From NCBI RefSeq assembly GCF_025574485.1, contig NZ_JAOBPO010000001.1, forward strand, positions 441,501 through 505,500: a DNA stretch of 64,000 bases, written 5' to 3'. Both the position numbers and the translations under genes were made by a program. Shown in pieces: positions 29,351 through 40,512 of the stretch. This DNA is from Kordiimonas aquimaris (GTDB taxonomy: Bacteria; Pseudomonadota; Alphaproteobacteria; Sphingomonadales; Kordiimonadaceae). The notes under the pieces are model-generated. The model did not search any database and was not told the DNA's origin. It was given only the letters and a program-made list of their open reading frames with translations. Every line of letters starts with the position of its first letter. Position 1 is the first letter of the stretch.

Positions 29351-29399
29351 CTTCTTTTTCGCCTTGAAATTGCCATGCCTTTTGCGCAGTGTCCGCTGC

Positions 29400-30254
29400 A
29401 TGAAACCTATGTACTATAAAAAACATCAAAAACAACAGTGGCACTGTATCGTTGCTAGTGTTGCGCTTGTCAGCATACATGCTTTTTATTCTCTGTCAGC
29501 CTTTGCGCAAGATAGTGGAGCTACAATTGATGGGGCAAAATATGAAAAGTGCCTCATGCTAGCTGAAGCCGCGCCTGACAGGGGTATCAACATGGCGCTT
29601 GAATGGCAATTGGTGAACGGCGGTGTACCAGCAAAACACTGCGAAGCAGTAGGGTTGTTTTTTGCGAGGGAATATAGCGAAGCAGCAGCCCGCCTGGAAG
29701 GTATAGCAGAAGATATGCGTATTGGCCGCGGGATGCCTGTGCGTGGTGATGAACGCGCTACAGCAAGCGCAGCCATGCTGGCGGACACATACGGGCAAGC
29801 AGCGAACGCATGGCTTTTGGGCGGCGAATTAGTGCGAGCGGAATCAGCTATTATCCAAGCGCTGTCTATCGTTCCTGAACATAGTACACTGGAGCGGGAG
29901 CTGCGTATCGACCGTGCACGTATAGCTGCTGCCGATGAGGACTTCACACTTGCGCTGTCCGAGCTTGAGGCTGTGTGGGCTGTAGACCGTAACCGTCTTG
30001 ATATTCTTATACTGCTTGCGTCTGCTGCACGAGGTATTGAAAATTACGAGCGGGCCGCTTCAGCATTGAAAACATATATGGCAACCTATCCGGATGATCC
30101 GGCAGGGTTTCTTGAGTTAGGCAACTTGAAGGACGCCGAAGGCGACAAGCCCGCGGCACGGCAGGCATGGCTAAAAGTACTGGCACTGAGCGAAACAGGG
30201 TCTGATGCTGATGCTGCGCGCGCTAATCTTGAACGTATTGATGTAGCGAAATAA
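29400..30254 (+). CDS. Secreted tetratricopeptide repeat protein
   Basis: A 284-residue protein with a signal peptide (cleavage after SAFA, before QDSG) and TPR-type helical repeats. Repeat-like stretches are NAWLLGGELVRAESAIIQALSI and YERAASALKTYMATYPDDPAGFLELGNLKDAEGD. It probably acts as a periplasmic scaffold; no catalytic motif is seen. The ATG at 29400 is 49 bases from the divergent SDR start. Confidence 0.75.
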   Translation: MKPMYYKKHQKQQWHCIVASVALVSIHAFYSLSAFAQDSGATIDGAKYEKCLMLAEAAPDRGINMALEWQLVNGGVPAKHCEAVGLFFAREYSEAAARLEGIAEDMRIGRGMPVRGDERATASAAMLADTYGQAANAWLLGGELVRAESAIIQALSIVPEHSTLERELRIDRARIAAADEDFTLALSELEAVWAVDRNRLDILILLASAARGIENYERAASALKTYMATYPDDPAGFLELGNLKDAEGDKPAARQAWLKVLALSETGSDADAARANLERIDVAK

Positions 30255-30284: not shown

Positions 30285-32042
30285 TTAAAACTTTACGGTT
30301 GCTTCGTATAAGTCAGGCAGGTTGTTTTCAAAAAGAACAGCATCACCAGCACGCCAATTGTTTTTAACCCACGTTTCAGCGTCTTCCTGCGTCGCGAATT
30401 GCATAACCGTAGTTTGCCCGTTATTTGCACCTTCCAGGCCTTTGACAAAGGTTGGAATACGGTCTGGTGTAACAACACATACAATGTCTGCATGTTTTGC
30501 AGCTAAAGCGCCGAGGCGAGCATGTTCGCTATCATGCAATGCGCCGAGCTCTACCATGCCCGGTGTAACCAGAATGCGCCGCCCTTCTTGTTCAACCAAA
30601 ACGTCAAGGCATTCAAGCGCACCCGCGAACCCAATAGGGTTTGAATTGTAAGCGTCATTGATGATGGTCGGTGATCCTGCTGACTGTGAAACTTCAAGTC
30701 GAAAGCGGATTTGCGGCAAGGATGCAAGCGCTCCTTTAATTGCAGACCATGGCAGGCCTACTGCGCGCGCAGTAACGGCAGCCATCAAGATGTTTTCTGC
30801 CTGATGCTGGCCGAAGATGGGTGCCTTGAGCGTATGCTCGCCGTCTTTGTCTGCTACACTAATAACAAGGCCTTGTTTGGTCATATTATAATCGATCAAA
30901 CGTACATCGCCTTCCTTGCCGACAACGGTATAGTCACCGGGCACAGCTTGCATACGCTCTAATCGCAGTTTTTCCTCTATACCGTCAGCATTAATGACAG
31001 CCTGCCCTCCTTGCGCAAAGGCCGCTTCTGCTATTTCAAATTTGGCTTTGGCAACAGTTTCCAGTGTCTTAAAGCGCTCATAGTGGGCTGCACCCACGGC
31101 TGTTACAAGTGCTACATTAGGAGGCGTTAAGCGGCATAGGCGAGCGATGGAGCCGGGCCCGTATGCGCCCATTTCAACAATGAAATACTGGTGTTGTTCA
31201 GTTAGTTTTTCACGGATAATGCGCGTTATACCCATCTCGGTGTTGACGCTGCCTGGTGTGGCGATTGTTGGTGCTGCAGCGTCCATAATGTGAGCAAGAA
31301 TATGTTTTGTGGAGGTTTTTCCAAATGAACCCGTGATGGCAATTACGGTGGGCTTCAGACGGTTAAACTTTTCAGCGGCCTCTGCCCGAAACTTTGCTTT
31401 GACCCGTTCTTCAGCGGGCTCAAGAATTTTGTTTGCGGCAATAATCAGGAAAGGTAGTAGCTGGACAAGCACAATTGTTAGCGCAAGCAACGCTGTTAAA
31501 CGCCAATCGTAACTGGCGTTTAAAAAGCGGAAAGTATCGAACCAGCCTGATGGGTCGTCTTCTATTGTCAGGCTATAATGTGCACCGAATGGCGCTAATG
31601 TGGCGACATATAGAAAAGCGACTAACAAGCCAAGCAATAGGAGCAAATAAATATAGCGAATGCGTTTTACACGGTCAGTGACCACGAGCGGTTTTTTGTT
31701 GTTTCTACTGGTGCTGTATGAGCGTAATACACCAGCTATCATTGCGGTGGTTGCAATAGCGAAAGGTATCAATGTGCGCGCTGCAGTGTTTAAGCTTTCC
31801 GATGCTGTATCTGACTGTGTCATTGCCGACGCGATAATTGCAGCAATTAACACGATGGTGGCAGTAATATCGTAAGCGCGTTTTTCTTTCAGCCACACAA
31901 CAAAACGCGGATTATCGTATTCCTCTTGCTGGAAGAACATCAGGAAAGCATTGCCGCGCACGAAAGCGAACCAAAGGCATAAAATAGCGAATACGCCAAA
32001 AAGCAGGGCTGTTGTGTTGTCCAGTCCAACACTTTCAATCAT
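30285..32042 (-). CDS. Membrane-anchored MurF-like Mur ligase
   Basis: A 585-residue protein with two halves. Residues 1-205 hold about five transmembrane segments (12-28, 60-77, 89-107, 130-150, 180-205). Residues 230-585 form a Mur ligase: P-loop TGSFGKTSTK (237-246), TPGSVNTEMGI, VEMGAYG, AVGAAHYERF, and NDAYNSNP (462-469), the MurF-type C-terminal motif. The normal MurF N-terminal UDP-substrate domain is absent, replaced by the membrane part. It overlaps the hydrolase gene by four bases and closes the Ddl-like/hydrolase/ligase operon. It probably joins a dipeptide to a membrane-held acceptor; the acceptor is unknown. Confidence 0.82.
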   Translation of the reverse strand: MIESVGLDNTTALLFGVFAILCLWFAFVRGNAFLMFFQQEEYDNPRFVVWLKEKRAYDITATIVLIAAIIASAMTQSDTASESLNTAARTLIPFAIATTAMIAGVLRSYSTSRNNKKPLVVTDRVKRIRYIYLLLLLGLLVAFLYVATLAPFGAHYSLTIEDDPSGWFDTFRFLNASYDWRLTALLALTIVLVQLLPFLIIAANKILEPAEERVKAKFRAEAAEKFNRLKPTVIAITGSFGKTSTKHILAHIMDAAAPTIATPGSVNTEMGITRIIREKLTEQHQYFIVEMGAYGPGSIARLCRLTPPNVALVTAVGAAHYERFKTLETVAKAKFEIAEAAFAQGGQAVINADGIEEKLRLERMQAVPGDYTVVGKEGDVRLIDYNMTKQGLVISVADKDGEHTLKAPIFGQHQAENILMAAVTARAVGLPWSAIKGALASLPQIRFRLEVSQSAGSPTIINDAYNSNPIGFAGALECLDVLVEQEGRRILVTPGMVELGALHDSEHARLGALAAKHADIVCVVTPDRIPTFVKGLEGANNGQTTVMQFATQEDAETWVKNNWRAGDAVLFENNLPDLYEATVKF

Positions 32043-32806
32043 GGTGTTGCTACCTTCTCTAGGAATCGCTTCATCACAGCTTCACACTGGTATGCGCCGC
32101 GCGTCATGATATCCCAATGATCGAAACCGGGTAGTTCGTGAAACTCGGCGTTTTGTATCATTTCAGCATAGCGCTGGCCAAATTCAGGCGGCGTCTCTGT
32201 ATCATTGCTGCCATATATCAAACATGTAGGGCATTTCAATGTTTGCGCCTGCGATGTCAGGTCTTCGTTCACAACTTTAACAAATGTGCCGCGCAGTATG
32301 CCTGCATTTTTATAATCTGCACTACCAAACTTTTCCTGAAAACGTGTTCGCATCTTGGTGCCGAGAATTTGATCACTAAGGTGGGCTAGCTTACCAAGCG
32401 TCCGGAGATAAAAAGCGCGTAGTTTGAATGCAGTTGAGCGTTTGCGCTTTAATCCGGCACCGGCAATACCAATGATGCCTTGAACAAGCTCAGGGTGCCG
32501 GGCCGCCATTTGAATGGAGACCCGCACGCCAAAACTGTGACCAATGAATATATGGGGACCGCTTCCTTTCAGGATATCTGCAAGCGTATCTGCATATTCT
32601 GCTGTGCCTGGGTTGTTTTCCATTGGCGGTGTCTTGCCAAAGCCAGGCTGGTCAAAGCGTTGATGTTTTCCACTGCCATTTAGCAAGGGTTGAAGCCTGT
32701 CAAAAGCGCGGCTGTCCTGACCCCATCCATGTAGCCAAACATATGACGGTGAGTCATCACCGCTTGTTGTGCTGTGCCACGCTGTTGCTTTTGTGGTTTT
32801 TGTCAC
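32039..32806 (-). CDS. Alpha/beta hydrolase in the Ddl-like/MurF-like operon
   Basis: A 255-residue cytosolic alpha/beta-hydrolase-fold protein. It has the oxyanion-side WLHGWGQDSRAFD, nucleophile elbow GHSFG, an acidic residue after YGSND, and the catalytic His in GFDHWD. It starts at a GTG with AAGG in the last codons of the Ddl-like gene, three bases after its stop, and its own stop overlaps the next start by four bases. Such tight packing says it works with the two ligases, perhaps as an esterase or peptidase on their product. Confidence 0.82.
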   Translation of the reverse strand: MTKTTKATAWHSTTSGDDSPSYVWLHGWGQDSRAFDRLQPLLNGSGKHQRFDQPGFGKTPPMENNPGTAEYADTLADILKGSGPHIFIGHSFGVRVSIQMAARHPELVQGIIGIAGAGLKRKRSTAFKLRAFYLRTLGKLAHLSDQILGTKMRTRFQEKFGSADYKNAGILRGTFVKVVNEDLTSQAQTLKCPTCLIYGSNDTETPPEFGQRYAEMIQNAEFHELPGFDHWDIMTRGAYQCEAVMKRFLEKVATP

Positions 32807-32809
32807 AAG

Positions 32810-34033
32810 TTAACCTTGATTAAAAATAGTGGCGCCGCTGCTGGCCGCATCTGTTGTGCCGAGACGTGCTGCGGATAGACGAAAGCCTTCATCGACCATA
32901 GCGCTTGCAAGCGCGAGAAAGCTAACAGGGCTAGTTGCGGCTTCCCAAAGAAAATAAGCAAATGAGCCAGGGATTGTGTTTGCTTCATTGAACCATAGTT
33001 CGCCTGTTTTGCTGTCGCATAAAAAGTCGATACGGACAGAGCCGGCGAGATCAAGCACCTCAAAAACTTTAATCGCGGTATCGCGGATAACGGTTTCCTG
33101 CGCGGCTGTCAGCTCTTCAGGGTTTAACACGCGGTTTAATGAAGCCATGCCTTCACTGGGCCCACTGTCCAGTTTAGGTCCTCCGGGTGTGCCGCCTGCA
33201 AGGTACTTGTTTTTGAAATCAAGAACATCGCTTTCACTGAGCGGCCGCTCGATTGCAGAGGTTTCAACTGAGCCGGATGGTGCACGGCGCACCGCAATAT
33301 TATATTCTACGAGGTTGTCGACAAACGGCTCAACAATAGCTGACTTGTCTAGCCGAAATACCGTCATTAAAGAAGCGATGAGCGCGTCCATGTCTGTTGC
33401 TTTTGATACACCGACGCTGGAGCCCAGGTTGCTTGGCTTTACAATAAGTGGAAACGGATCTTTACCCAGGTTTTCTGACAGCGCGACTGTTAGTGTTTCT
33501 GGCTCAAGAAACATGCCTTTTTTCGGGCGTTGAATAGTTACTTCAGGTAGCACATTAAGCATGTGCTGACGCGCTACAGCTTTGGCAAATTCTTTGTTCA
33601 TGGTTGCGGCCGCTCCAAGCGTGCGGCATCCGGCAAATGGAATGTCGGCGAACTCAAGCAGGCCTTGCAGCGTGCCATCTTCACCGTTGGAGCCATGGAT
33701 AGCGGGCACGATAAGGTCAAACTCAATAGAGATTGCCTTTTCGCCCATCAGGTTCTTTTTGCGCCCAATTAAGCGTGGCCGCCCGTGTGCAGGTGTTGCA
33801 AGGTCAAGCCTGACAGGCTCAAGACTTGCCGCATGATCACGCACAGGGTAGTTTTTGCGACTTTTCAGCGCATCGCCAGTCCACCATGCACCAAGCCCAT
33901 CCACATAAATAGGTAGCCCTTCATACAGTGTTGGGTCGAGCGCTTCCAGAAATTGAAGGCCTGTCAGGATGCTGACATCGTGTTCGACACTACGTCCACC
34001 AAAAATAACCGCGATAACTTTTTTGGGCGCCAT
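32810..34033 (-). CDS. D-alanine--D-alanine ligase-like ATP-grasp enzyme
   Basis: A 407-residue ATP-grasp ligase of the Ddl family. Conserved pieces are FGGRSVEHDVS (11-21, with the catalytic Glu), HGSNGEDGTLQGLLE (113-127), GSSVGVS (204-210), and NEANTIPGS (349-357). The omega-loop KY pair is kept (276-277), but the usual FYDY just before it reads VLDF, and a longer Gly/Pro-rich linker follows (about 279-305). The ATG at 34033 was chosen, since the longer frame has no family match. It is first in the operon with the hydrolase and MurF-like ligase. It probably makes a D-Ala-D-X dipeptide. Confidence 0.85.
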   Translation of the reverse strand: MAPKKVIAVIFGGRSVEHDVSILTGLQFLEALDPTLYEGLPIYVDGLGAWWTGDALKSRKNYPVRDHAASLEPVRLDLATPAHGRPRLIGRKKNLMGEKAISIEFDLIVPAIHGSNGEDGTLQGLLEFADIPFAGCRTLGAAATMNKEFAKAVARQHMLNVLPEVTIQRPKKGMFLEPETLTVALSENLGKDPFPLIVKPSNLGSSVGVSKATDMDALIASLMTVFRLDKSAIVEPFVDNLVEYNIAVRRAPSGSVETSAIERPLSESDVLDFKNKYLAGGTPGGPKLDSGPSEGMASLNRVLNPEELTAAQETVIRDTAIKVFEVLDLAGSVRIDFLCDSKTGELWFNEANTIPGSFAYFLWEAATSPVSFLALASAMVDEGFRLSAARLGTTDAASSGATIFNQG

Positions 34034-34218: not shown

Positions 34219-34254
34219 GCACGCGCGGGTTATAAAAGGGTCAAGGAGAACCAC

Positions 34255-35160
34255 ATGACATTCAAGACATGGGCTATACGCATGGGCGTGGCCGCTAGCA
34301 TGACGGCATTATCCGTTAGTGCGCTGGCACAAAACAACTTTGATGACGTTAAAATTACGACACAAAAACTAACAGACACAGTTTATGTTCTATTTGGTGC
34401 AGGCGGCAATATTGGTGTTTCTGTTGGTGAAGACGGTGTTTTTATCATCGATGATCAGTTTGCACCACTTACCGAGCGTATTAAAGCAGCGATTGCGGAA
34501 TTGTCTGACCAACCAATACGGTTTGCGATCAACACCCATTTTCACGGTGACCACACAGGCGGCAATGAAAACCTGGGCAAAGAAGGTACCGTGATCGTTG
34601 CGCATGATAATGTGCGTGTGCGGATGAGCCAAAGTGCATTTAATCGGACGTTTAATCGGCGGTCTGAGGCAAAGCCAAAAGCGGCATTGCCTGTTGTAAC
34701 ATTTAATGACCGGGCGAGCTTGCACCTGAACGGAGATACAGCACGCATGCATCATGTGCGCCGTGCTCATACGGACGGTGATTCAATTGTTGAATTTGAA
34801 AAAGACAATGTCTTGCATATGGGTGATACGTTTTTTGTCGGCCGCTTTCCTTTCATTGATGTTGACAGTGGTGGCACCATTGATGGTGTGATTGGCTCGA
34901 CAAAAACGGCAATTGCGATTGCGGATGATAATACGCAGGTAATCCCCGGCCACGGCCCTGTTACAGACCGTGAAGGGTTGCGCGCATATCTTAAAATGCT
35001 GGAAGATAGCCGTGACCGTGTGGCCAAGCTGAAAGCAGACGGTAAAACGCTGGATGAAATAAGAGCAGCAAAACCGCTTGCCGACTATGAAGAAACCATT
35101 ACAGGCGGCGGCGCTGACTGGACCAATGCCTACATTGGGTTTGTGTTTAACAGCTTATAG
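34255..35160 (+). CDS. Secreted MBL-fold metallo-hydrolase
   Basis: A 301-residue periplasmic metallo-beta-lactamase-fold protein. The signal peptide ends SALAQ-NNFDD. The zinc motif THFHGDHTGG is intact, later ligands are likely in RAHTDGDS and IPGHGPV, and a metal Asp lies in HMGDTFF. Homologues include many non-lactamase hydrolases, so resistance should not be assumed. It is divergent from the Ddl-like operon; whether the two are linked is unknown. It has its own promoter and a strong terminator at 35182-35205. Confidence 0.88.
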   Translation: MTFKTWAIRMGVAASMTALSVSALAQNNFDDVKITTQKLTDTVYVLFGAGGNIGVSVGEDGVFIIDDQFAPLTERIKAAIAELSDQPIRFAINTHFHGDHTGGNENLGKEGTVIVAHDNVRVRMSQSAFNRTFNRRSEAKPKAALPVVTFNDRASLHLNGDTARMHHVRRAHTDGDSIVEFEKDNVLHMGDTFFVGRFPFIDVDSGGTIDGVIGSTKTAIAIADDNTQVIPGHGPVTDREGLRAYLKMLEDSRDRVAKLKADGKTLDEIRAAKPLADYEETITGGGADWTNAYIGFVFNSL

Positions 35161-38937: not shown

Positions 38938-40512
38938 TCAGTTTTTGCGGCTAACAGCTAACCGTATTTGCTTAAGGTTCAGTGCCCCCAATGCGAACGC
39001 ACTTGCAAAATAAAGTGTGCTGCCAAAGGCAACGAACCCTGCAAGTGTTGCGATGCGTTGCCAGTTGTCTGTCTCGAACAGGTGGTGCAGTGTTGTACCT
39101 GCATAAAAGAGCCCGGTCGCCATCACGGCAGAAGCAACGATATATTTGCCGCAATTGATCCATGTTTGTGTCTCAACATGAAAATGGCCACGTTTCAGTA
39201 AGCCACCGTATAGCAATATTATGTTGAGCCATGCCGCGATTGCTGTTGCTGCAGCTATGCCAGCATGAGCCATAAACTGGATGAGGACTAAGTTTAAAAC
39301 TAAATTGACGCTCAGTGATATGGTCGCATAAATCACAGGTGTTTTAGTGTCACCGCGTGCAAAATAGGCTGGTGTGAGCGTTTTCTGAATAACATATGCT
39401 GGCAAACCGATAGCATATGCAATTAAAGCAAAACTGGTCGCTTGTGTATCTGTAGCTGTGAAAGCGCCGCGTTCAAACAATGTAGCGATTAGTGGATAAG
39501 CAATCATACCAAGTGCTGTTGCGGCAGGAAGTGTGATTAGCAGGGAAAATTCAAGCGACCTATTTTGTTGTGCCACTGCGCCTTCATTGTCTCCTGCAGC
39601 CAAAAGCCGAGATATGCTTGGCAGCAAAACAGTACCTACAGCAATACCGATTACCCCGAGCGGAAGCTGTGCTAATCGGTCTGCCCAAAACAACCATGTA
39701 ACTGAACCTTCTGGCAGCAACCTTGCTGCTATGATGATATCAGCAAGCAGGTTGATTTGCATGATACCGGCACCAACAGCAGCAGGTGCCATGACGCGCA
39801 ATAATTGGCGGACATCTTCGCTTAGCTTTGGTTTGAGCAAGGTTACTTTGAGGCCGGCGCGTTTGGCCGCGCCGAACAGCAGCAGGAGTTGCAGCGCGCC
39901 TGAAATAGATACGGCTCCAGCCAGATAGCGGGCTGTTTCAATGTCGCTGCTATTGAAAAACAAAAGCGATAAAATCATGACAATATTTAACAATACGGGT
40001 GCAAATGCGGCAGCCGCGAACCGCTCCACAGCATTAAGCATACCAGCAAAGAATGACACCAACGATATCAGCAATAAGTAAGGAAAAGTGTAACGCCCGA
40101 GCTCGACAACTAGGTTAAACTTTTCTGCGCCTGCGGCGCCTTCATCAGTGAAGCCGCCCGTCAGACCAAACATAACAGGCACCATTGCGACTTCCATAAT
40201 CAACAGCATCACGATCAACACAGGTAGTAGCCAGCCCAATACCCTACTGGCAAATGCCTCTGCAGCCTTTTGGCTTTCGGGTGTAATTTCTTTACCCAAT
40301 GCTTTTGAAAATAATGGCACAAAACCAACAGAGAAAGCGCCTTCAGCGAACAGGCGACGGAAAAAATTAGGTAGCTTGAACGCAATGACGAAAGCATCCG
40401 AGGCCATGCCAACACCCAGATAGCGGGCCATCATCAAATCGCGAACAAGTCCAAATATACGGCTTAGAAGTGTGAAACCACTGACAGTGAGTATCTTTCG
40501 GATCAGGCTCAT
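38938..40512 (-). CDS. murJ: Lipid II flippase MurJ
   Basis: Inner-membrane flippase that moves lipid II to the periplasm for peptidoglycan synthesis. The 524-residue protein has about 14 hydrophobic helices. The N-terminus VSGFTLLSRIFGLVRDLMMARYLG and the following FKLPNFFRRLFAEGAFSVGFVP match MurJ, with its conserved central-cavity arginines. It overlaps glnD by four bases, so translation is coupled. Confidence 0.96.
   Translation of the reverse strand: MSLIRKILTVSGFTLLSRIFGLVRDLMMARYLGVGMASDAFVIAFKLPNFFRRLFAEGAFSVGFVPLFSKALGKEITPESQKAAEAFASRVLGWLLPVLIVMLLIMEVAMVPVMFGLTGGFTDEGAAGAEKFNLVVELGRYTFPYLLLISLVSFFAGMLNAVERFAAAAFAPVLLNIVMILSLLFFNSSDIETARYLAGAVSISGALQLLLLFGAAKRAGLKVTLLKPKLSEDVRQLLRVMAPAAVGAGIMQINLLADIIIAARLLPEGSVTWLFWADRLAQLPLGVIGIAVGTVLLPSISRLLAAGDNEGAVAQQNRSLEFSLLITLPAATALGMIAYPLIATLFERGAFTATDTQATSFALIAYAIGLPAYVIQKTLTPAYFARGDTKTPVIYATISLSVNLVLNLVLIQFMAHAGIAAATAIAAWLNIILLYGGLLKRGHFHVETQTWINCGKYIVASAVMATGLFYAGTTLHHLFETDNWQRIATLAGFVAFGSTLYFASAFALGALNLKQIRLAVSRKN

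Follow-up and report, generated by a model that had tools for sequence, protein, structure and literature searches.

The gene cluster and its Ddl-like and hydrolase products

Do a Ddl-like ligase, a hydrolase and a MurF-like ligase encoded side by side in Kordiimonas aquimaris constitute a second peptide-ligase pathway, or the route by which this bacterium completes its own peptidoglycan? In bacteria with peptidoglycan, both MurF and Ddl are usually regarded as essential, and as acting in a fixed order. In the window, i.e. the whole 64,000-nucleotide stretch of DNA that was analyzed, three tightly packed minus-strand open reading frames code successively for the Ddl-like protein, an alpha/beta hydrolase and a membrane MurF-like ligase, here termed MURL. 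Their coordinates bear out the originally noted packing, with a 3-base gap between the first two genes and a 4-base overlap between the last two. A GTG at 34222 offers an alternative start for the Ddl-like protein that would add 63 amino acids; the alignment of its relatives begins at the ATG at 34033. The features of the cluster and its flanks are:

34255-35160: flanking gene, metallo-beta-lactamase-fold protein (from Pfam)
32810..34033, minus strand: Ddl-like ATP-grasp ligase, 407 amino acids, ATG start at 34033, with Dala_Dala_lig_N and Dala_Dala_lig_C domains
33203..33208, minus strand: omega-loop Lys276-Tyr277 pair of the Ddl-like protein, invariant in 18 of 18 aligned sequences
32945..32971, minus strand: PGSFAYFLW segment of the Ddl-like protein, shorter by four residues than its counterpart in a solved Ddl, presumably near the second-substrate site
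32039..32806, minus strand: alpha/beta hydrolase, 255 amino acids, GTG start, Abhydrolase_1 domain, with Ser91, Asp202 and His230
30285..32042, minus strand: MURL, membrane MurF-like ligase, 585 amino acids, with Mur_ligase_M and Mur_ligase_C domains
31359..32042, minus strand: MURL residues 1-228, its N-terminal membrane domain, predicted to have five transmembrane helices in the position of the UDP-MurNAc domain
31869..31952, minus strand: loop 1 of MURL (residues 31-58), predicted to be cytoplasmic, FFQQEEYD, with Q38 and Y42 in all 40 sequences
31659..31718, minus strand: loop 2 of MURL (residues 109-128), predicted to be cytoplasmic and basic in composition, KKxLVxTxRxKR, with T122 and R124 in all 40 sequences
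30288..31358, minus strand: Mur middle and C-terminal domains of MURL, catalytic residues intact
29364-30254: flanking gene, TPR protein (from Pfam)

The Ddl-like protein resembles Ddl in possessing both Pfam domains above their cut-offs (98.2 bits for Dala_Dala_lig_N and 100 bits for Dala_Dala_lig_C), in ATP-grasp residues that are invariant in the alignment of its relatives, and in the omega-loop Lys-Tyr pair, which we take to be a mark of peptide-forming ligases. It departs from Ddl in the shorter loop near the presumed second-substrate site, in a longer omega-loop linker, and in falling below the cut-offs of the curated Ddl models (TIGR01205, 209.4 bits against 245.65; NF002528, 223 against 262). 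The reading that the Lys-Tyr pair is kept with VLDF replacing FYDY was confirmed both in the alignment and against the solved Ddl 2i80 (presumably that of S. aureus): the omega loop reads VLDFKNKY where 2i80 has FYDYKSKY. We propose that this enzyme would make D-Ala-D-Ala or a very similar dipeptide.

The hydrolase does possess the intact triad ascribed to it, with Ser91, Asp202 and His230 invariant in 23 of 23 sequences. A fold search recovered generic esterases and lipases, matches that do not discriminate its substrate; as a weak suggestion, it might trim or proofread the dipeptide or the stem product.

MURL and the ligase complement of its genome

MURL scores above the Pfam cut-offs for both the Mur middle and C-terminal domains (PF08245 and PF02875), and K242, T243, N267, E290, H320, K334, N417, R448 and D463 are intact in all 40 sequences of an alignment that includes two pairs of identical rows. 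Its best PDB matches, both by sequence and by fold, are MurFs. Against the MurF model TIGR01143 it obtains 226.3 bits, below the curated cut-off of 288.6, with the match beginning only at position 62 of the 418 model positions. At the C-terminus ENNLPD stands in place of the KGS of MurF, and hence the donor could differ from D-Ala-D-Ala. Cyanophycin synthetase was also considered and set aside (TIGR02068, 29.3 bits against a cut-off of 850).

Upstream of this core, Pfam detects no N-terminal UDP-binding Mur_ligase domain at E 0.01. Residues 10-202 instead contain five hydrophobic segments (the fourth is overlapped by a marginal sixth), and these coincide with helices in an AlphaFold2 model; thus Pfam, hydropathy and the model agree with the prediction that about five transmembrane helices have supplanted the substrate domain. 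In the topology that we assigned from the model and hydropathy, 17 of the 19 invariant residues of positions 1-228 fall in predicted cytoplasmic segments, which make up 72 of the 228 positions (p 7e-8). The missing UDP-binding domain, together with this concentration of invariant residues on the cytoplasmic side, suggests that the acceptor is probably lipid-linked, although, taken by itself, we rate that assignment at roughly even chances. The acceptor would probably be undecaprenyl-diphosphoryl-MurNAc-tripeptide, or perhaps lipid II-tripeptide. The original idea that a dipeptide is joined to a membrane-bound acceptor fits the anatomy of MURL, but with the modification that this acceptor would most likely be the usual peptidoglycan stem, already attached to its carrier lipid.

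The genome from which the window derives (completeness 100, contamination 0.03) codes for no other Ddl N-domain (PF01820) than that of the Ddl-like protein, and its sole MurF-type match is MURL (TIGR01143, 227 bits); the other four matches to this model, at 54-74 bits, belong to murC, murD and murE. An ATP-grasp protein at C1:865129 matches Ddl_C and was rejected as a second Ddl in that it lacks PF01820, Ddl_C matches on contigs C20 and C11 are weak (31-45 bits), and a further candidate at 811 kb on C1 looks FolC-like by eye. The dcw cluster (C11:764-784 kb) is devoid of exactly murF and ddl, with murE adjoining mraY and murB overlapping ftsQ. FtsI retains its STFK, SSN and KTG motifs, from which we infer that stems of the D-Ala-D-Ala type should still be needed. 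The proposal of a second pathway is thus not supported in this organism: the lack of any other murF or Ddl, named at the outset as an outcome that would refute it, makes the two ligases the likely housekeeping pair.

Together these observations suggest, on the strength of sequence comparisons, that MURL is very probably a substitute for MurF, and that the triad is likely to be the housekeeping machinery with which the organism completes its stem peptide, a lipid-linked acceptor being about as likely as not. On the cytoplasmic side of the membrane, MURL would extend the tripeptide stem with the dipeptide, in place of the lost MurF. If the acceptor is lipid-linked, MraY would precede the last ligation. 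Our tentative model, just short of an even chance, is that the stem is completed on the membrane, with MraY loading the tripeptide and MURL adding D-Ala-D-Ala, and with the canonical MurF decayed or gone in several lineages.

The status of MURL as the only MurF-type protein of this genome is also compatible with a membrane-tethered MurF that still acts on UDP-MurNAc-tripeptide, leaving the order of steps unchanged. In this version MURL would be held next to MraY or MurG by its membrane domain, and its basic loops on the cytoplasmic side would bind the diphosphate of UDP; a diphosphate of any kind could be bound by conserved basic residues, for example K117 and R124. The general order also places UDP-MurNAc-pentapeptide before MraY (PMC6113224, PMC3829189). 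However, the uridine-binding N-domain is missing, and the same absence in MurT/GatD accompanies a lipid-linked rather than a UDP-linked substrate (PMC6085368, PMC6113224). We consider this alternative rather unlikely.

Distribution of the triad and fate of the canonical MurF

Among 289 alphaproteobacterial genomes MURL and this Ddl each occur in 20, and 19 genomes have both (Fisher p 2e-27, kinship not corrected); the two misfit genomes are 78% and 84% complete. In a scan of named genomes, which used patterns built from the window protein alone, all 25 MURL loci had matches to all three genes, the Ddl gene being cut by contig ends at loci L013 and L032 (57 residues left). Hence the cluster does recur elsewhere, as had been anticipated, and is no chance association: all three genes are matched at the 25 named loci, and MURL and Ddl occur together in the 19 genomes of the class. 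Across 398 genomes of the phylum there were 18 matches at 1e-50, of which the four full-length ones are all from Alphaproteobacteria and the other 14 cover only the Mur core. None of 96 matching plasmid records covers 80% of MURL.

A full-length canonical MurF occurs in 3 of 20 genomes with MURL vs 14 of 16 sampled genomes without it (p 3e-5, kinship not corrected); a phylogenetic pairs test, with only 4 pairs and hence too few to reach significance, gave a median p of 0.25. In three genomes (G050, G251 and G308) the P-loop of the MurF pieces in the dcw cluster is destroyed, and in four others (G166, G219, G298 and G299) MurF has lost other catalytic residues. One genome without MURL (G008) also has no MurF match at 1e-38. 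The triad was said to lie away from dcw genes; this holds for the genome of the window (contig C1 as against C11), but not for two relatives. At locus L035 the gene order is murB ... MURL, hydrolase, Ddl, ftsQ, ftsA, such that the triad occupies the ddl slot of the dcw cluster, and the same apparently applies to G237, where MURL adjoins murB and Ddl adjoins ftsQ at a contig end.

A canonical MurF match accompanies MURL in 13 of the 24 named genomes, and in 11 of these no motif is clearly lost; Kordiimonas laminariae, K. sediminis and Rhodothalassium salexigens are among the species that have both ligases. In the class draw, G115 and G198 likewise have a canonical MurF besides MURL, indicating that MURL is not merely what remains once MurF is lost. 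In the 13 named relatives MURL is thus an extra ligase, but Ddl is not duplicated: each of the 24 named genomes has one (E 1e-5), which in 22 of them lies on the same contig as MURL. This coexistence, the C-terminal motif unlike that of MurF, and the hydrolase gene that is always close by in the named loci would suit a different role, in which MURL modifies the envelope by placing the dipeptide or another amine on some other membrane acceptor; species without MurF would then have an unrecognised route or a stem lacking D-Ala-D-Ala. We regard such a role as improbable: loss of or damage to MurF is seen mainly where MURL is present, the active-site motifs of FtsI are intact, and at L035 the triad takes the place of ddl within the dcw cluster.

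Comparison with known systems

We return to MURL as a probable substitute for MurF acting on the stem. If completion on the membrane is true, MraY acts before the MurF-type ligation, the reverse of the textbook sequence, and lineages with MurF missing or dead and a membrane ligase would be evidence that the final step in the cytoplasm can be transferred to the membrane. Replacement by MURL would also explain murF gaps in alphaproteobacterial genomes. The discriminating question is whether the pentapeptide arises on a UDP-linked or a lipid-linked precursor. Neither a membrane MurF nor murF loss in these bacteria appeared among the matches listed from the open-access literature. A shortened stem can be loaded by MraY (PMC3829189).

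With MurF, MURL shares the Mur middle and C-terminal domains, the catalytic motifs and the best structural matches, whereas it differs in having five transmembrane helices instead of the UDP-MurNAc domain, in ENNLPD for KGS, and in its score below the TIGR01143 cut-off. MurT offers a second point of reference, and its chain 6gs2_B was matched by the MURL profile. MurT has no N-domain, and MurT/GatD works on lipid I and II rather than on UDP precursors, according to PMC6085368 and PMC6113224. MURL is similarly a Mur core without the N-terminal domain, with a substrate that would lie at the membrane. In contrast to MurT/GatD, no GatD-type glutamine amidotransferase gene adjoins MURL, its neighbors being the hydrolase and Ddl; unlike MurT, MURL carries its own membrane domain, and it is nearer to MurF than to MurT.

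Conservation of a Ddl, hydrolase and membrane MurF-like gene triad

The triad is a genuine, conserved version of the Ddl-MurF step, composed of a sole Ddl, a probable membrane substitute for MurF and a linked hydrolase. In the genomes searched, all examples to date come from Alphaproteobacteria. The window encodes the triad as follows:

34033-30285, minus strand: Ddl-like ligase (407 aa), alpha/beta hydrolase (255 aa) and MURL, the membrane MurF-like ligase (585 aa)

The tight packing originally noticed is present: 3 bases separate the Ddl and hydrolase genes, and the hydrolase and MURL genes overlap by 4. The Ddl-like protein matches both Ddl Pfam domains, the hydrolase Abhydrolase_1, and MURL both Mur_ligase_M and Mur_ligase_C, with the N-terminal Mur_ligase domain absent from its Pfam matches. 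A MurJ lipid II flippase (PF03023, 379 bits) is encoded at 38938-40512 on the minus strand, about 5 kb from the triad, and the murJ and trpS neighborhood is retained in several further loci of the Kordiimonadales, the closest relatives judged by the triad locus.

The original prediction of a second peptide-ligase pathway does not hold for the source genome (3.81 Mb, 26 contigs, completeness 100, contamination 0.03), which has no other Ddl N-domain and no other MurF. A PF01820 search (E 0.001) found a single place, the window Ddl-like protein, and the murF model TIGR01143 recovered MURL at 227 bits along with four weaker rows (54-74 bits) located within murC, murD and murE. The division/cell-wall (dcw) cluster reads mraZ, rsmH, ftsL, ftsI, murE, mraY, murD, ftsW, murG, murC, murB, ftsQ, ftsA, with names assigned by eye from translation; used as queries, these proteins recovered a matching gene order in other genomes. 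Since murE abuts mraY and murB overlaps ftsQ, there is no space here for murF or ddl. FtsI retains its STFK, SSN and KTG motifs; hence, judging from these motifs, a D-Ala-D-Ala-type stem should be required in this organism.

The named-genome scan gave 29 loci, of which 25 contain MURL; the candidates in L037, L038, L039 and L041 are instead MurFs, their N-terminal region being of the usual type on visual inspection. Co-occurrence of the three genes, the check proposed for the prediction, was seen at 25/25 MURL loci, with the Ddl gene cut by a contig end in two (L013 and L032) and on the opposite strand in two others (L033 and L035). In most Kordiimonadales loci this linkage carries little information because the entire neighborhood is syntenic. 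Seven loci (L030-L036) keep the triad with nearly all tested flanking genes absent, though L030 retains two, displaced, and L032 is a short contig. Separately, L044:6755-8588 codes for an ATP-grasp protein with a Ddl_C-like domain and no Ddl N-domain, directly 5' of a nucleotidyltransferase-like frame (by eye).

In a class draw of 289 alphaproteobacterial genomes, MURL occurs in 20, the window-type Ddl in 20 and both in 19; the mismatches are G069 (78% complete; MURL only, with neither a Ddl nor a hydrolase match found) and G032 (84%; Ddl only). Among the 19 MURL-bearing genomes besides the source, the two genes lie on one contig a few kb apart in 12, on separate contigs in four (G050, G117, G219, G222) and at contig ends in G166 and G237. 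The hydrolase match adjoins MURL in 17/19, and in G219 it adjoins Ddl instead.

Some triads lie at the dcw cluster. At L035, ftsA, ftsQ and Ddl share one strand, followed by the hydrolase and MURL on the opposite strand and, beyond about 3 kb of other frames, by murB, murC, murG and ftsW. In G237 the start of contig C19 carries the hydrolase and MURL directly beside murB, and the end of contig C5 carries Ddl directly beside ftsQ and ftsA, as if the L035 arrangement had been split by assembly. This slot is occupied by ddlB in two genomes lacking MURL (G012, G145) and in 8 of 12 further such dcw regions, the other 4 stopping short of ftsQ; the dcw regions read from 28 MURL-bearing genomes, some of them partial, gave no ddlB match. 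Five loci (L128, L129, L139, L142 and L152, from G308, G050, G251, G038 and G166) show no MurD match between mraY and ftsW, its usual place.

The membrane domain of MURL

The top PDB matches of MURL are MurFs, both by sequence and by the fold of its AlphaFold2 model (mean pLDDT 86). Its hydrophobic segments (10-28, 56-74, 88-106, 131-149, 184-202) coincide with helices of this model, and a marginal sixth overlaps the fourth. If the ATP-using core faces the cell interior, the N-terminus would lie on the outer side. The MURL alignment (A1) has 19 invariant residues among the 228 N-terminal ones, 17 of which fall in the three segments (72 positions; p 7e-8) that we ourselves assigned to the cytoplasm, and none in the predicted periplasmic loops. 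Q38, Y42, T122, R124, P197 and P209 are unvarying across 40 sequences, a set including two pairs of identical rows, and nine catalytic residues are identical in 40/40. With this pattern of conservation, the N-terminal domain looks like a binding site on the inner face of the membrane and more than an anchor alone. Three further residues never vary (N573, L575, D577) and lie at about the position where MurF instead has KGS.

Canonical MurF and Ddl in relatives

MurF and Ddl were searched in 36 class-draw genomes, 20 with MURL and 16 without, the latter picked from the listing blind to MurF status and mostly for higher completeness. Full-length canonical MurF occurs in 3/20 MURL-bearing genomes (G115, G198, G219) versus 14/16 of the others (p 3e-5, ignoring kinship). 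Of the two remaining genomes without MURL, G017 gives a divergent partial match and G008 none at 1e-38; the latter, a 93% complete alphaproteobacterial genome of 1.4 Mb, has a Ddl match, with MURL and a MurF match both missing. In the five of these 16 that were read (G005, G009, G012, G145, G017), no motif loss like that of MURL-bearing genomes was seen. Among the MURL-bearing genomes, the motifs look intact in G115 and G198, the latter gene lying outside the dcw cluster (L156; G198:C2:108800-111400). Catalytic motifs have been lost in G219 and in G166, which has a partial match; what remains of MurF in G050 and G251 falls short of the limit used for the search. Reading the dcw cluster of eight more (G000, G038, G058, G117, G222, G235, G237, G275) revealed no MurF between murE and mraY, and six (G013, G021, G031, G069, G137, G153) gave no match by search alone.

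Canonical MurF matches occur in 13 of the 24 named genomes, and the other 11 match MURL only (MURL itself is unmatched in G307 at the limit used, and G311 is the same genome as G251). Catalytic residues are lost in two of the 13 (G298, G299), one conserved Asn is replaced in G304, and the others show no clear motif loss. A single Ddl match (E 1e-5) is present in 24/24, on the MURL contig in 22, and the 20 class-draw genomes with MURL have one PF01820 place in 18, two in G237 and none in G069. Thus, the window-type Ddl is the sole one even where MurF is retained.

Some genomes preserve MurF pieces without a P-loop, keeping an N-domain-like part:

L128:4773-5900: 375-aa frame between murE and mraY (G308), its N-terminal part aligning to MurF; no Pfam match at E 0.01
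L129:14022-16433: shortened piece fused behind MurE (G050, 803 aa)
L139:3968-6280: shortened piece fused behind MurE (G251, 770 aa)

These are perhaps retained as binding or scaffold domains. G166 encodes a 1027-aa MurE-MurF fusion in which a P-loop persists and the Lys, His and DxYNANP-type positions are gone.

A tree built on eight dcw proteins in 41 genomes implies at least seven changes in MurF state and at least six in MURL presence. A Fisher p of 4e-6 from it is biased, because the rows lacking MURL had been retrieved from the surroundings of an already located MurF or mraY, and was set aside; an independent-pairs test (4 pairs, median p 0.25) is not significant. The unrooted MURL tree retains several groups of the dcw tree, consistent with early inheritance plus losses, or with early transfers.

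A possible lipid-level step

The hydrolase retains Ser91, Asp202 and His230 in 23/23 sequences within a generic esterase fold, and our guess is that it trims or proofreads. As for MURL, two papers (PMC6085368, PMC6113224) describe MurT as lacking the roughly 90-residue UDP-binding domain, which would probably clash with the membrane, and MurT/GatD as amidating lipid I and II and never UDP precursors. A further paper (PMC3829189) indicates that S. aureus MraY is able to load a shortened (dipeptide) stem onto lipid. By analogy, MURL would most likely add D-Ala-D-Ala to a lipid-linked tripeptide. Where MurF is retained, MURL may finish stems that reach the lipid as tripeptides, and could have begun as a backup that was later sufficient. 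If borne out, such an ordering of the steps at the lipid level would be a true break with the textbook pathway.
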